IMG/VR virus record: IMGVR_UViG_3300034167_000497
Coordinates: 1-40,417 of that record
DNA: 40,417 bases
Source of the DNA: a virus
Reading direction: 5' to 3' (one strand)
Shown in pieces: positions 1,564 through 6,719 of the stretch. Position 1 is the stretch's first letter. Each line of letters begins with the position of its first letter. The position numbers were made by a program, and so were the translations under genes. Below the pieces are notes generated by a model. The model made no database searches. It was not told where the DNA came from and was given only the letters and a program-made list of their open reading frames with translations.

Positions 1564-1643
1564 TTATTAAAGTTACATCACCTGCAGTTACACCCTCTAA
1601 GGTAATTAAGGTTAACCTAAAAACCTTTATAATTAATAAGTGA
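1560..1643 (+). CDS. Putative 27-residue peptide
   Basis: The ATG at 1560 overlaps the previous stop (ATGA), and the TGA at 1641-1643 overlaps the GTG of the next gene (GTGA), making an unbroken chain. The product is basic: MIIKVTSPAVTPSKVIKVNL and seven more residues. A comparable small ORF (2797-2943) follows the paralogous Ig-like gene, which argues that these tiny ORFs are real and belong with their upstream partner. The -10 of the next gene lies inside it. Function unknown; a short interaction or linker peptide is possible. Confidence 0.4.
   Translation: MIIKVTSPAVTPSKVIKVNLKTFIINK
1628..1633 (+). promoter_or_regulatory. -10 box before the GTG start
   Basis: TATAAT ends exactly 6 nt before the GTG at 1640. 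It has no TGn element and a weak -35, so it is judged mainly on the conserved 6 nt spacing seen at five other genes in this window. Confidence 0.4.
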
Positions 1644-2404
1644 GCATAAGTAAAAAGTCTGAAATTCCAGGGATGCAATCAAAGCCTAAATATGGCTATG
1701 CCGAAGCAGCAGCAGAAACAGTTATAGAAACAAATAACCCCTTAGTGCCCGATATAGACTACAGAATACTTGTAGGGCCACCAGGACCACAAGGAATTGC
1801 TGGTAGACAGGGAGAGATAGGACCAAAAGGCGATAAAGGGGATCCTGGGCCACAAGGTGCTAAAGGTGAAAGAGGACAAAAGGGAGAACCAGGAGAATCA
1901 TCAATTGTTGCAAGCAACGGAATAGTTTCTCAAAATAGAAAGTCTGGTTGGGCATATTATGAAAATTTAGATCAGTCACAAATTCGTGTAGGACTATCTA
2001 GCGGAGATGAAGGATGGGTAAATATATTAAACGATGCAAAATCTGAAGGGACAAACGAAGAATATTTGCCAAAAGAAAATGTAAGTCTATGGAGTGCAGC
2101 AAATCAACAATTAAACTTTAAAGGATTAGATATAGGCACTAGAGTTGAAATAACTTATTGTTTTGAATTAGAAACATATGGAAATAATACTGAGGTTTGG
2201 ATAAGAGCCTTTTCTGAAAAAGCAACTTTAAATTCAACACAGTTTGTAGCAAACCTAAAATATAAATATCTTTATGATTTTTCAGTTACCCAAACCCTGT
2301 ACATAGTAAATGACAGAATTAGAAAATATGGAATTAACCCACAAATTAGAGCAGATTTTGACGGGGATGTAAAAGTCAAATCTATCTTAGTCCACATTTC
2401 TTAG
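1640..2404 (+). CDS. Collagen-like tail fibre protein
   Basis: 254 residues beginning at GTG. Residues 46-87 are fourteen consecutive Gly-X-Y triplets (GPPGPQGIAGRQGEIGPKGD and onward), able to form a collagen-like triple helix; three triplets (GPP, GDP, GEP) have proline at Y. A β-rich C-terminal domain follows (from about residue 88), opening with SGWAYYENLDQSQIRVGLSS and probably a trimeric tip. Phage collagen-like proteins are usually trimeric tail fibres or surface fibres. The GTG choice is supported by the GTGA overlap and the -10 box 6 nt upstream; the next in-frame ATG (residue 12) is less favoured. The oxygenase genes 3-7 kb downstream raise the question of proline hydroxylation. Confidence 0.75.
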   Translation: MSISKKSEIPGMQSKPKYGYAEAAAETVIETNNPLVPDIDYRILVGPPGPQGIAGRQGEIGPKGDKGDPGPQGAKGERGQKGEPGESSIVASNGIVSQNRKSGWAYYENLDQSQIRVGLSSGDEGWVNILNDAKSEGTNEEYLPKENVSLWSAANQQLNFKGLDIGTRVEITYCFELETYGNNTEVWIRAFSEKATLNSTQFVANLKYKYLYDFSVTQTLYIVNDRIRKYGINPQIRADFDGDVKVKSILVHIS

Positions 2405-2970: not shown

Positions 2971-3795
2971 ATGGCTGCCGGAAACATTGGAACTGATCAA
3001 ACTCATCACTATCCCCTTGCAAAAATGCCAGCGCTAACTGACGCTGCAGATATTCAGATTGCATTAAGAAATTATCATTATGGACAAGACACTCCCATTG
3101 CAACTGGCGTAGCCCCAACTGCAGGTATTGCATATTATTTAAAACAAATTGAAGCATCAATCGCTGAAATTTCTACAGACACTAGCGCAGTTGTTTTAGA
3201 ATCTGTTATGGACGCAAAAGGAGATCTTTTTGTTGGATCTGGTAACAACGCATTAGATAATTTATCAATTCCAGGAGGAAGTAACGGATATCTTTTAACA
3301 GCAGATACAGCAGAAACACTTGGAGTTAAATGGGCACCACCTGCGGTAACTGCAGCAACCACATCTGTTGTGGGAAGTGTTCAACTAAGTGATTCAATAT
3401 CAGAAACCTCATCAGTTAAAGCAGCAACACCAACTGCAGTAAAAACAGTTGCAGAGAGCACGTCTGCATTAAATTTTACTATTTTAGAAAAAACAGCAGA
3501 TCATACATTGGTTTTGTCAGATGGATATAAAATTATTGAAATGAATTTAACATCAACTGCAAATACAGTTACCATTCCAACTAATTCAACTCAGGCTTTT
3601 GCAACTGGTTCACAGATTACAATTATTCAAACTGGAACTGGAGCAACAACAGTAACAGTTTCTGCTGGAGTTACATTAAATTGTACACCTCAAATTTCTT
3701 CAAATGCAGCAAAATTAAGAGCACAGTATTCGTCCTGCACACTAATTAAACGAGCAACCAATACTTGGATTGCAATTGGCGACTTGAGTGCATAA
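2971..3795 (+). CDS. Tail fibre protein (Phage_fiber_2-like)
   Basis: 274 residues. The middle contains DAKGDLFVGSGNNALDNLSI and GYLLTADTAETLGVKW, a pattern common in shafts of tail fibres of environmental phages. It is followed by TTSVVGSVQLSDSISETSSV and KAATPTAVK, which matches the short repeat of Phage_fiber_2 tail fibres (G-x-V-Q-L...A-x-T-P...). The C-terminal part is Thr-rich β sequence ending in a Trp-containing cap (NTWIAIGDLSA). It probably forms a trimeric fibre for host recognition. The start is set by the -10 box 6 nt upstream, and the stop overlaps the next ATG (TAATG). Confidence 0.7.
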   Translation: MAAGNIGTDQTHHYPLAKMPALTDAADIQIALRNYHYGQDTPIATGVAPTAGIAYYLKQIEASIAEISTDTSAVVLESVMDAKGDLFVGSGNNALDNLSIPGGSNGYLLTADTAETLGVKWAPPAVTAATTSVVGSVQLSDSISETSSVKAATPTAVKTVAESTSALNFTILEKTADHTLVLSDGYKIIEMNLTSTANTVTIPTNSTQAFATGSQITIIQTGTGATTVTVSAGVTLNCTPQISSNAAKLRAQYSSCTLIKRATNTWIAIGDLSA

Positions 3796-4673
3796 TGCCA
3801 TTACCACCAATATCTTCAGGTAGTGGAGGAATACAACCAGGAATTCCAACAATTGGAACCGCAACAGCAGGAGATGCTAGTGCATCAATTACTTTTACAG
3901 CCCCTTCATATTTAGGAAAACCAACGGGAACAACTTATACTGCAACTTCAACTCCATCTAGTATAACTGGAACATCTTCAACCTCTCCAATAACTGTTAG
4001 TGGTTTATCAAATGGAACAGCCTATACATTTAAAGTAAAATTAGGAAACGGTGTTGCTACATCATTAGAATCTGCTTCAAGCAATTCGGCTACTCCTGCT
4101 GCATCCCCTGCACCATTTGGTTTTACACCTTTTGCACCCTTTGGTTTTACTCCATTTAGTTTTACTCCATTTGGTTTTACTCCATTTGGTCCATCCTATT
4201 CTGAATATTCAGTTGCTAGAAATACAGGAGTTTTAACAGTTGATGGAAGAAAACCAGCATCTGAACTACAAGTTGGAGACAAACTTTATGGAATGAATAT
4301 TCCATCTGAAAATGTATTAGATTGGACATCTTGGCAAAGTTCTGATATTGTTTTAAATTCTGACAATGTTGTAGAGACTGAAATTGTAAGCATTAATCTT
4401 CATCAAACAGATAAGATCTATTCTATTAACGGAGATTTATATTCTGGTTCACATTATGTTTTAACCAAAAAAGATGATGTTGTTAAGTTTACAAGAGCAG
4501 ATGAAATTGATTCTACATATTTTGTTTATTCATATGCAGCATTTGATTTTGAAGCAATCATTTCTGTAGAGGCAATTGATTATGAAGAAACAGTTTATTC
4601 TATTAACTGTGAGCCATACGACAACTTCTTTACAGATAATATGTTGGTTTTTGACACAAAAGATCAAATGTAG
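3795..4673 (+). CDS. FN3 + Phe-rich repeat + Hint (intein-like) domain tail protein
   Basis: 292 residues from ATG 3795, which overlaps the previous stop; an upstream in-frame start at 3765 would only add residues inside the preceding gene. Order: an FN3-like domain (about 15-101), a repeat of FGFTPF/FSFTPF units (107-133), then a Hint-like domain (139-287). The Hint evidence is SVARNTGVLTVDG followed by ELQVGD (block A-like, with Ser139 at the usual Cys1 position), GSHYVLT with His220 (block B-like), and VYSINCEPYDNFFTDNMLVF (block F/G-like). The usual terminal His-Asn is replaced by Phe-Asp and there is no C-extein. Full splicing is therefore unlikely, while N-terminal ester formation, cleavage or cross-linking remains possible. 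Context points to a fibre or adhesin. Confidence 0.65.
   Translation: MPLPPISSGSGGIQPGIPTIGTATAGDASASITFTAPSYLGKPTGTTYTATSTPSSITGTSSTSPITVSGLSNGTAYTFKVKLGNGVATSLESASSNSATPAASPAPFGFTPFAPFGFTPFSFTPFGFTPFGPSYSEYSVARNTGVLTVDGRKPASELQVGDKLYGMNIPSENVLDWTSWQSSDIVLNSDNVVETEIVSINLHQTDKIYSINGDLYSGSHYVLTKKDDVVKFTRADEIDSTYFVYSYAAFDFEAIISVEAIDYEETVYSINCEPYDNFFTDNMLVFDTKDQM
4113..4190 (+). repeat. In-frame tandem repeat encoding FGFTPF/FSFTPF
   Basis: Degenerate 18 nt units (ggttttactccattt-like) encode about four hexapeptides rich in Phe, Thr and Pro between the FN3 and Hint domains. This makes an unusual aromatic linker. The high nucleotide similarity of neighbouring units suggests that the copy number can change by slippage. 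Confidence 0.75.
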
Positions 4674-4685: not shown

Positions 4686-5432
4686 ATGATAAAAAATGTT
4701 ATAAAATGGTTTAATAAAGATCCTATTATTCAATTTGATCTTGCCTATCCAAAAATGATAAAAATATTTCCAGAACCAAAGCCAGCAATTGCTAATGTTC
4801 CCGAATGGTATAAAAAACAACCTAGTCATTATAATAATGATAGGAGTTTGGTAAATGGAGTAATGCAATTAACTGTAAAAAAATGTCAAGCAATTTTTGA
4901 TGGGATGACAAGTGGTTATTTTTTACTAGCACCAGTTGATATTTATATAGACACAACAGATAATAAAACATTAATTGAAATTCCCGAACCATTTAGAAAA
5001 TTAAATCAACCAATTTTAGGAGTTCACCCTACATTACAAATATCTGAATACCCATTAGATAAAGATTTATATTTAGATAATTTATTAAGAATTCATCCAA
5101 TTTGGCTTGTGTCAACCCCAAAAGGATATAGTACTTTGTTTATGCCACCAATGCATCATGATTTGCCAATTCAAGCAGTACCAGCAATAATTGATAGCGA
5201 TAATTTTTATTCAGATGGACTCCTATCTTATTTTGTTAAAAAAAATTATAAAGGAGTTATTAAACAGGGAACTCCAATAGTTCAAGTTATTCCATTCAAA
5301 AGAGAAAAATGGCAATCTAAAATTAATGAAGATTTTGACACTGGATTATTATATGAACAAAGAAAAAACTTACGCTCGACCTTTGAAAATGGATATAGAT
5401 TAAAGTTTTGGAAAAAAAAACAATATCAATGA
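4686..5432 (+). CDS. Conserved phage protein of unknown function
   Basis: 248 residues. I recognise the pattern from hypothetical proteins of marine phages but know no function. Conserved-looking elements: VPEWYKK (38-44), TVKKCQAIFDGMTSGYFLLA (63-82), HPIWLVSTPKGYSTLFMPPM (137-156), and KQGTPIVQVIPFKREKW (193-209). Alternating hydrophobic strands with conserved Gly, Pro and Trp suggest a compact β-rich domain. There is no signal peptide or membrane segment. It opens the non-structural island between two fibre blocks and has its own near-consensus promoter. An association with the neighbouring oxygenase genes is suggested by position only. Confidence 0.5.
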   Translation: MIKNVIKWFNKDPIIQFDLAYPKMIKIFPEPKPAIANVPEWYKKQPSHYNNDRSLVNGVMQLTVKKCQAIFDGMTSGYFLLAPVDIYIDTTDNKTLIEIPEPFRKLNQPILGVHPTLQISEYPLDKDLYLDNLLRIHPIWLVSTPKGYSTLFMPPMHHDLPIQAVPAIIDSDNFYSDGLLSYFVKKNYKGVIKQGTPIVQVIPFKREKWQSKINEDFDTGLLYEQRKNLRSTFENGYRLKFWKKKQYQ

Positions 5433-5463: not shown

Positions 5464-6072
5464 ATGACAGAAAAACCACATAAGTTTTTTGAACGGTATT
5501 TAGATAATGACCTAGAAGAACTTTCAGATGAATTAATTAAAAGATACGATATTATTAAAGATGGCAATAAAGTAAATACAAAAGACATCTGGCTATCTTC
5601 AAACAGTATTTCAACAATTAAATGGAGAGATTATAATGTTTTTCAATTTTATATTACTGGAATAAGAAATTTATATACAGAAATTTCAACTCTTGCAAAA
5701 GAGGCTTGTGAATATTATGAAATTGATTTTGCAAAACAAAATTATTTCATTCAAGGTTGGTTTAATATAAACAGTGCAAATAAAGGAAAATTAACTTGGC
5801 ATGATCATGGACCAAGCAATGAAAATCTTTTTCATGGATATTATTGCGTAAATGCAGAGCCTTCTATTACTAAATATAGTGTTAATGGTACTCATGTTGA
5901 TAATGTTAATAAAAATAATCGTTTAATTATGTCTGAAATGGGCCATCCACATTCTATGGATGATTGGGAATGGGAAGGCAAAAGAATTACAGTTGCATAT
6001 GATATTCTTCCATTAAAAAATCTTCAAAGAGATTTAATGAGCCAAGAACAACACTGGATTCCTTTATGTTAA
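5464..6072 (+). CDS. 2-oxoglutarate/Fe(II) oxygenase-like protein, copy 1
   Basis: 202 residues. It has an N-terminal helix-like segment KPHKFFERYLDNDL (4-17), then a core reading GWFNINS (98-104), WHDHG (112-116), LFHGYYCVNAEPS (122-134), GHPH (160-163) and KRITVAYDI (173-181). A proximal His/Asp cluster, a distal His and an Arg about ten residues later is the arrangement of the 2OG-Fe(II) dioxygenase fold, where two His and one acidic residue hold iron and Arg binds 2-oxoglutarate. Candidate ligands are H113/D114/H115, H161 or H163, and R174. Such enzymes hydroxylate proteins, nucleic acids or small molecules; the substrate here is unknown. A good SD (GGGAG) precedes the ATG. It overlaps the paralogous next gene by 7 nt. 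Confidence 0.6.
   Translation: MTEKPHKFFERYLDNDLEELSDELIKRYDIIKDGNKVNTKDIWLSSNSISTIKWRDYNVFQFYITGIRNLYTEISTLAKEACEYYEIDFAKQNYFIQGWFNINSANKGKLTWHDHGPSNENLFHGYYCVNAEPSITKYSVNGTHVDNVNKNNRLIMSEMGHPHSMDDWEWEGKRITVAYDILPLKNLQRDLMSQEQHWIPLC
5471..5510 (+). repeat. 40 nt direct repeat, copy 1
   Basis: Matches 6073-6112 at 39 of 40 positions (difference at 5484/6086). It encodes the start of KPHKFFERYLDND in both oxygenase paralogues. The rest of the two genes is far more diverged. Confidence 0.9.
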
Positions 6073-6719
6073 AAAAACCACATAAATTTTTTGAACGGTA
6101 TTTAGATAATGATTTAGACAATCTTTTTAACTTTTTATCTTTAAAAGAAGATGAAATTATAAATAAGCAATTTGCCAATATTCCTCTAGATAAAGTTGAA
6201 AAATATACAAAAAAGGGTCAGGGAGCACCAAGCCAATTAGACCATTATTACAATGTCTTTGATTTTGACAATGAAAATATTAAAAATCTTTTTAATGGAT
6301 TAATTGATGCCACAAAAGAGGCTTGTGAATATTATGGTATTGATTTTATAAAACACAATTACATGATTCATGGTTGGTTTAATATAGACTCATCGTCAAA
6401 AGGAACTGCTGGGGTATCACCAATAAAACATGAAAATCATTTTCATGATCACGTAGGAGGAACTGGTGCTCCAATTTTTCATGGTTATTACTGTGTAAAT
6501 GCGGAACCATCAACTACATTTTATAAAATTAACGGAACAGAATTATTTGAAAATGTTAATAAAAACAATAGGCTAATTGTTTCAGAAACGGGACATCCTC
6601 ACGGACGAGATGATTGGTATTTTGATAAACAAAGAATTACAATTGCTTATGATATTCAACCATTGTATGGATCATCACCGACCAATACTGTTCCCAATCC
6701 TTGGAAATTACTGGAGTAG
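6066..6719 (+). CDS. 2-oxoglutarate/Fe(II) oxygenase-like protein, copy 2
   Basis: 217 residues, a paralogue of the preceding protein. It shares the N-terminal KPHKFFERYLDNDL and the core GWFNIDS (103-109), HFHDH (125-129), FHGYYCVNAEPS (138-149), GHPHGRDDW (176-184) and QRITIAYDI (189-197). Candidate iron ligands are H127/D128/H129 and H177 or H179, with R190 for 2-oxoglutarate. It differs from copy 1 by an insertion around residues 111-133 near the proximal metal motif, which could change substrate choice. The ATG overlaps the upstream stop by 7 nt, so translation is probably coupled. Function of the pair unknown. Confidence 0.6.
   Translation: MLKKPHKFFERYLDNDLDNLFNFLSLKEDEIINKQFANIPLDKVEKYTKKGQGAPSQLDHYYNVFDFDNENIKNLFNGLIDATKEACEYYGIDFIKHNYMIHGWFNIDSSSKGTAGVSPIKHENHFHDHVGGTGAPIFHGYYCVNAEPSTTFYKINGTELFENVNKNNRLIVSETGHPHGRDDWYFDKQRITIAYDIQPLYGSSPTNTVPNPWKLLE
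6073..6112 (+). repeat. 40 nt direct repeat, copy 2
   Basis: Partner of 5471-5510, at the 5' end of the second oxygenase-like gene, with one mismatch in 40 nt. Confidence 0.9.

Follow-up and report, generated by a model that had tools for sequence, protein, structure and literature searches.

A C-terminal Hint domain with Ser at the nucleophile position on a phage fibre-cassette protein, a probable self-processing adhesin

The virus record IMGVR_UViG_3300034167_000497 carries a gene whose product ends in an intein-like (Hint) domain with Ser at the nucleophile position and without the terminal His-Asn. Does such a domain still process the protein that it ends? We examined this gene in the window, the whole 40,417-nucleotide stretch of that record, together with its relatives, and the sequence comparison suggests that the Hint-ended protein is probably a self-processing adhesin. 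The gene, its parts and its neighbours are as follows.

2971..3795 (+): tail-fibre-like protein ending ...KRATNTWIAIGDLSA; its stop overlaps the start of the Hint gene, and a GDL-ending fibre lies upstream at 51/51 loci
3795..4673 (+): Hint-tailed adhesin-like protein, whole gene; ORF of 292 aa, ATG at 3795, stop ending at 4673
3867..4076 (+): FN3-like domain, residues 25-94; Pfam fn3 E 7e-4, below cut-off, which a sister protein passes
4110..4190 (+): low-complexity FGFTPF repeat linker, residues 106-132, seen in the sequence; the linker type differs among family members
4209..4655 (+): Hint domain, residues 139-287; Pfam, PDB profile search, AlphaFold2 and Foldseek
4209..4211 (+): Ser139, Hint residue 1 and predicted nucleophile from conservation; predicted scissile bond Tyr138-Ser139
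4218..4654 (+): stretch of 437 bp over which the two Hint genes from sister contigs do not differ; it contains the hybrid junction, from contig comparison
4452..4454 (+): His220, block B histidine; 61/61 in the Ser clade, 13/13 in the sister clade
4608..4610 (+): Cys272 in INCEPYD, specific to the Ser clade (61/61); Val/Ala in the sister clade
4650..4655 (+): Phe286-Asp287, replacing a terminal His-Asn that the sister clade has in 13/13
4686..5432 (+): phrog_7084 protein, the commonest third cassette gene, from its phrog match and neighbourhood counts

In the 292-aa protein, block A is S139-VARNTGVLTVDG, block B is SGSH220YVLT and block F is INCEPYDNFFT. The protein ends in LVFD287TKDQM, with five residues after D287. 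The blocks A, B and F/G, the Phe-Asp end and the five trailing residues are thus as the sequence-only reading had described them. A second Hint domain was looked for across the window, and only this one is present. A collagen-repeat tail-fibre protein lies upstream of the cassette (window 1640-2404).

The same reading had placed a Hint domain at the C-terminus of this protein and had named another predicted fold as its refutation. The Pfam model Intein_splicing matches the isolated C-terminal domain at 2.6e-5, below its curated cut-off, and the Pfam Hint_2 model gave no match in the window. A profile of the family found BIL chains and chains of the gp41-1 intein in the PDB at E 0.0075-0.015. 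Using an input alignment of 59 relatives, AlphaFold2 modelled residues 133-292 with a mean pLDDT of 91.6 and a pTM of 0.87. The top PDB match in Foldseek was the BIL2 domain of the Tetrahymena BUBL1 locus (3.5e-8, TM 0.72), followed by a Clostridium BIL, DnaB mini-inteins, gp41-1, class 3 inteins and Hedgehog-C, so that the top matches are Hint structures only and no other fold was obtained. Since Pfam, the PDB profile search, AlphaFold2 and Foldseek agree on Hint, the match is not due to chance, and the predicted fold is settled to the extent that prediction can settle it.

Among viral models, the best Foldseek matches included proteins from uncultured Caudovirales that already bore the names Hint, PASTA or Fibronectin type III. 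The others were unnamed proteins, which we read as proteins of phage NCTB from the agreement in protein length. A Hint domain in such viral proteins has therefore been annotated automatically before and is not new in kind, BIL and Hedgehog being known examples of Hint domains that are C-terminal or limited to cleavage.

Relatives were gathered by scanning IMG/VR with three alignments. The family has a common architecture, in which a short conserved N-terminal anchor peptide is followed by one or more FN3 or PASTA domains (confirmed with Pfam in sampled members), a low-complexity repeat linker and the C-terminal Hint domain. The linkers are of the FGFTPF, FPP, FGA, GFSHYA, PVIIAEP, SPVG and TPTP types. 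Hint is always the last domain, with 3-12 residues beyond residue 287.

The gene neighbourhood is equally regular. Upstream sequence could be used at 51 loci, and at all 51 the gene before the Hint gene has GDL among its final eight residues, typically as ...KLRxQWSSATLxKRATDTWVxxGDLSA, and its stop lies between 44 bp before and 1 bp after the start of the Hint gene. Three families account for most of the downstream genes; phrog_7084 is the largest, with 30 loci, and a 2OG-Fe(II) oxygenase is another. With a fibre gene before it and these third-gene families after it, the Hint gene comes second in a fibre cassette. The earlier placement of the domain on a fibre- or adhesin-like protein agrees with this position directly behind the fibre gene, from which we infer that the protein resembles an adhesin or adaptor. 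The third gene of the window (4686-5432) gave a medium-confidence model (pLDDT 77) that is weakly dUTPase/dCTP deaminase-like (best E 0.0067), too weakly for us to assign a function. Two adjacent paralogues, at 5464-6072 and 6066-6719, lie in the interval that separates the Hint cassette from the RNR gene; at other loci, the slot behind the Hint gene holds 2OG-Fe(II) oxygenases.

Relatives with Ser at Hint residue 1 form what we call the Ser clade. Annotated phage genomes contained no Ser-clade members, only Cys-type jumbo phages at 23-29% identity. No Ser-clade isolates were found in the phage collection searched, and tblastn of 84,980 species genomes found no cellular relatives. A literature search on Hint domains in phage fibres turned up S74 and inteins, the latter in genes such as those for terminase and RNR, and nothing else.

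Residues were counted in 61 Ser-clade sequences at 90% non-redundancy, with pairwise identities of 29-90%. Ser139, His220 and Cys272 are invariant (61/61 each), counts to be read with the search patterns in mind: the INCEPYD columns were in the pattern of the first two IMG/VR scans and the block B His in that of the third, while Ser139 lay outside the pattern of the second and third scans, His220 outside the second and Cys272 outside the third. The Ser139 positions were first chosen by eye from Ser-starting motifs, and MAFFT puts all of them in one gap-free column ahead of Thr144. One relative excluded by the motif rule, L167, also reads YSIGGETG. Thr144 and Asp276 are nearly invariant (59/61 each), and residues 138 and 141-143 are variable. 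The most invariant stretch of the Ser-clade Hint is INCEPYDNFFT. At the block-F Asp site (269), 55 of the 61 have Ser, and the site of the block-B Thr217 holds Ser in 48, Thr in 10 and Val in 3.

The terminal His-Asn is lost throughout the Ser clade, so its reported absence from the window protein, as well as the Ser at residue 1, holds family-wide. Position 286 is F/Y/K/M/L/H, mostly Phe or Tyr, and position 287 is Asp in 56, Glu in 4 and Asn in 1. The dN/dS of the Hint domain is mostly 0.04-0.3 for related pairs, with one nearly identical and uninformative pair at 1.27. This pattern indicates that the Ser-type Hint without His-Asn is maintained under purifying selection and reflects an old single switch rather than the decay of one gene.

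The nearest homologous clade that we found consists of the Cys1/His-Asn Hints (phrog_38766) of Erwinia, Dickeya and Yersinia jumbo phages (the last including fHe-Yen9-02), phage NCTB and three metagenomic contigs. Their Hint is likewise C-terminal, on collagen-like or other tail proteins, is 23-29% identical to that of the window and shares the W180, INGD and EPYD motifs with the Ser clade. In contrast to the Ser clade, these Hints keep Cys1 preceded by Gly, Thr-x-x-His and the terminal His-Asn (13/13 each), as well as the block-F Asp in 11/13, and have Val or Ala at position 272 in the 13 sampled. With the trait columns removed, one branch parts the Ser from the Cys types with an SH-aLRT of 98, in a quick unrooted tree with long branches. 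On this single supported branch, the change from Cys...His-Asn to Ser...Phe-Asp with the gain of Cys272, or its reverse, most likely happened once and was then retained.

At loci L202, L203 and L204, a Cys1/His-Asn Hint stands behind SPVG linkers, the linker type of the Ser-clade member L090. This suggests that the linker-Hint architecture predates the Ser/Cys split or was exchanged. Phage NCTB also encodes a free-standing Hint-like protein (L014 6477-6938) with a degenerate block A and an intact terminal His-Asn, directly behind a tail protein with the full Cys1 Hint.

The window gene itself is a hybrid. Contigs 3300043570_002078 and 3300034168_000196 represent the same phage and have two Hint genes at a distance of 7.7 kb from each other. 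Copy 1 has the N-terminus of the window protein and ends in DSKDKTNN, while copy 2 has a different FN3 N-terminus and ends in DTKDQM. Along 437 bp (window 4218-4654), the copies (L002 4928-5466 and L005 4928-5466) do not differ at all, in contrast to the other parts of the genes. The window tracks copy 1 through 4217 and continues as copy 2 at 4655, so that 7.7 kb with fibre genes are left out. Because the two parental copies are separate in the sister contigs and joined here within the identical 437 bp, the hybrid is an assembly collapse or a recombinational deletion between the copies. Contigs L002, L003, L004 and L006 agree with the window only as far as copy 1 extends and part from it beyond that point, and the hybrid recurs in none of the contigs retrieved; the 5'/3' combination itself may be an artefact. 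In other two-cassette phages the Hint copies have diverged (64-72% identity), whereas the 437-bp identity found here suggests recent gene conversion or duplication.

The 7.7-kb segment missing from the window contains a transglycosylase-like (SLT_3) gene on the opposite strand (L002 5474-6019, (-)). The fibre gene preceding copy 2 (L005 1927-4197) starts with Mtd_N, the major tropism determinant N-terminal domain (2.3e-11). For the major capsid protein, the nearest relatives are in Streptomyces phages (~43%); for the RNR, they are in Actinomycetia phage DSL-LC01 and in Mycobacterium phages (~61%). From these nearest relatives, the host is likely actinobacterial.

We compared the Ser-clade Hint with known systems. 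As in the HINT superfamily, it has the Hint fold and Cys/Ser at block A position 1 (Ser, 61/61). Of the superfamily's block B Thr-x-x-His, the His is invariant (61/61), and the Thr position is Ser in 48, Thr in 10 and Val in 3. B-type BILs are defined by intein motifs except the C-terminal one and occur at variable positions in non-conserved surface proteins (PMC7765530). The Ser clade shares with them the Hint fold, the N-terminal motifs and the absence of the C-terminal motif, so that splicing is not expected, and it fits type B by definition rather than by a type-B profile, its block-B Thr being mostly Ser. It differs from B-type BILs in its Ser in place of the usual Cys, in the block-B substitution, in its fixed C-terminal position on a phage fibre-cassette protein and in the extra invariant Cys272. 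The conserved C-terminal His-Asn of type A BILs is absent from the Ser clade and present in its sister clade (13/13).

Like the Hog domain of Hedgehog, the Ser-clade Hint lies C-terminal to a functional N-terminal domain, and only the first acyl shift would be possible; Hog has Cys1 and a sterol-recognition region, whereas the window protein has Ser1 and its family ends 3-12 residues past Hint. The His-Asn, +1 nucleophile and conserved host insertion of class 1 inteins are lacking, the domain having Phe-Asp and 3-12 residues to the end. Class 3 inteins (WCT motif) also have a cysteine in the block F region, but residue 1 is Ser here and Cys272 lies three positions after the block-F:4 site, which is Ser269 in the window protein and Asp in the sister clade. 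We therefore rejected a class 3 intein through Cys272, which is at F:7 and not F:4. Peptidase_S74 tail-fibre chaperones would be alike if cleavage occurs, as C-terminal self-removing modules on fibre proteins, but their fold and chemistry differ.

Normal splicing, already judged impossible in the sequence-only reading, would require a terminal Asn, a C-extein and a +1 nucleophile; the protein lacks all three and has not even a short C-extein. In class 1 inteins, Ser1 is accepted as the nucleophile of the first acyl shift, and where the later residues are missing, HINT proteins perform only cleavage or transfer (PMC7664689; PMC7765530). Because the protein retains the first-step residues only and Ser1 chemistry is known in inteins, we lean towards N-terminal processing in which the Tyr138-Ser139 bond is broken and the Hint domain is released or the adhesin part transferred, in a cleavage-only manner like that of B-type BILs or Hedgehog. 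Ser139 would attack the Tyr138-Ser139 bond with the assistance of His220 (N-to-O acyl shift). The ester that now holds the FN3/repeat part would then be hydrolysed, which frees the Hint domain, or be handed to an outside nucleophile. We infer the reaction, its timing and its product from the computed fold, residues, conservation and gene position.

The main doubts about processing come from Ser269, the block-B Thr-to-Ser change, the unconserved residue before Ser139 and the invariant Cys272. Both the change of the block-F Asp to Ser and that of the block-B Thr mostly to Ser would weaken a standard acyl shift. Together with the loss of His-Asn, and with INCEPYDNFFT, not a classic catalytic motif, as the most invariant stretch, these changes, seen in most members, are in line with a catalytically dead Hint kept as a C-terminal structural cap or binding module, in which Ser139, His220 and Cys272 serve folding or fibre binding. 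The invariance of Ser139 and His220 could indeed reflect such a structural role. We regard a dead Hint, the main rival reading, as possible but less likely, since Ser139 has no Ala, Gly or Thr in any of the 61 relatives and His220 is equally fixed while their neighbours are free to vary. For the same reason, an active N-terminal reaction is the better bet.

An active domain might instead act by Hedgehog-like acyl transfer, passing the Ser139 ester to a nucleophile that belongs to the neighbouring fibre, to a lipid or to the host surface and so anchoring the FN3/repeat part covalently. The Hedgehog-like anatomy (functional N-terminal part, C-terminal Hint, no C-extein), the presence of Hedgehog-C among the Foldseek matches and the strict linkage to a fibre gene are in line with this, but no acceptor or acceptor-binding region is recognisable in the sequence, and Hint reaches the C-terminus without a sterol-recognition-like extension, which makes such transfer unlikely. 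A metastable Ser139 ester, possibly passed to Cys272 as a thioester, that covalently attaches the adhesin to the fibre or host surface seems more doubtful still. The hybrid across the 437-bp identical repeat could also raise the suspicion that Ser and Phe-Asp are an accident of one gene, a pseudogene or an assembly artefact. This is very improbable, as the same Hint is on both parental genes in the sister contigs and the whole family has the Ser/no-His-Asn state under purifying selection; pseudogene or single-gene decay was rejected on that family-wide state and the low dN/dS.

These results define a widespread phage fibre-cassette family, whose Ser clade was seen here only in environmental contigs, and in which the Cys...His-Asn of the Hint domain is replaced by Ser...(Phe/Tyr)-Asp while Ser and His are kept invariant. 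If inactive, the domain would clearly exemplify the retention of a catalytic fold as a structural cap. If active, it would provide a second self-processing chemistry for fibre maturation beside S74-type chaperones, and natural Hint domains of this Ser1, cleavage-only kind would lend themselves to use as cleavable tags.
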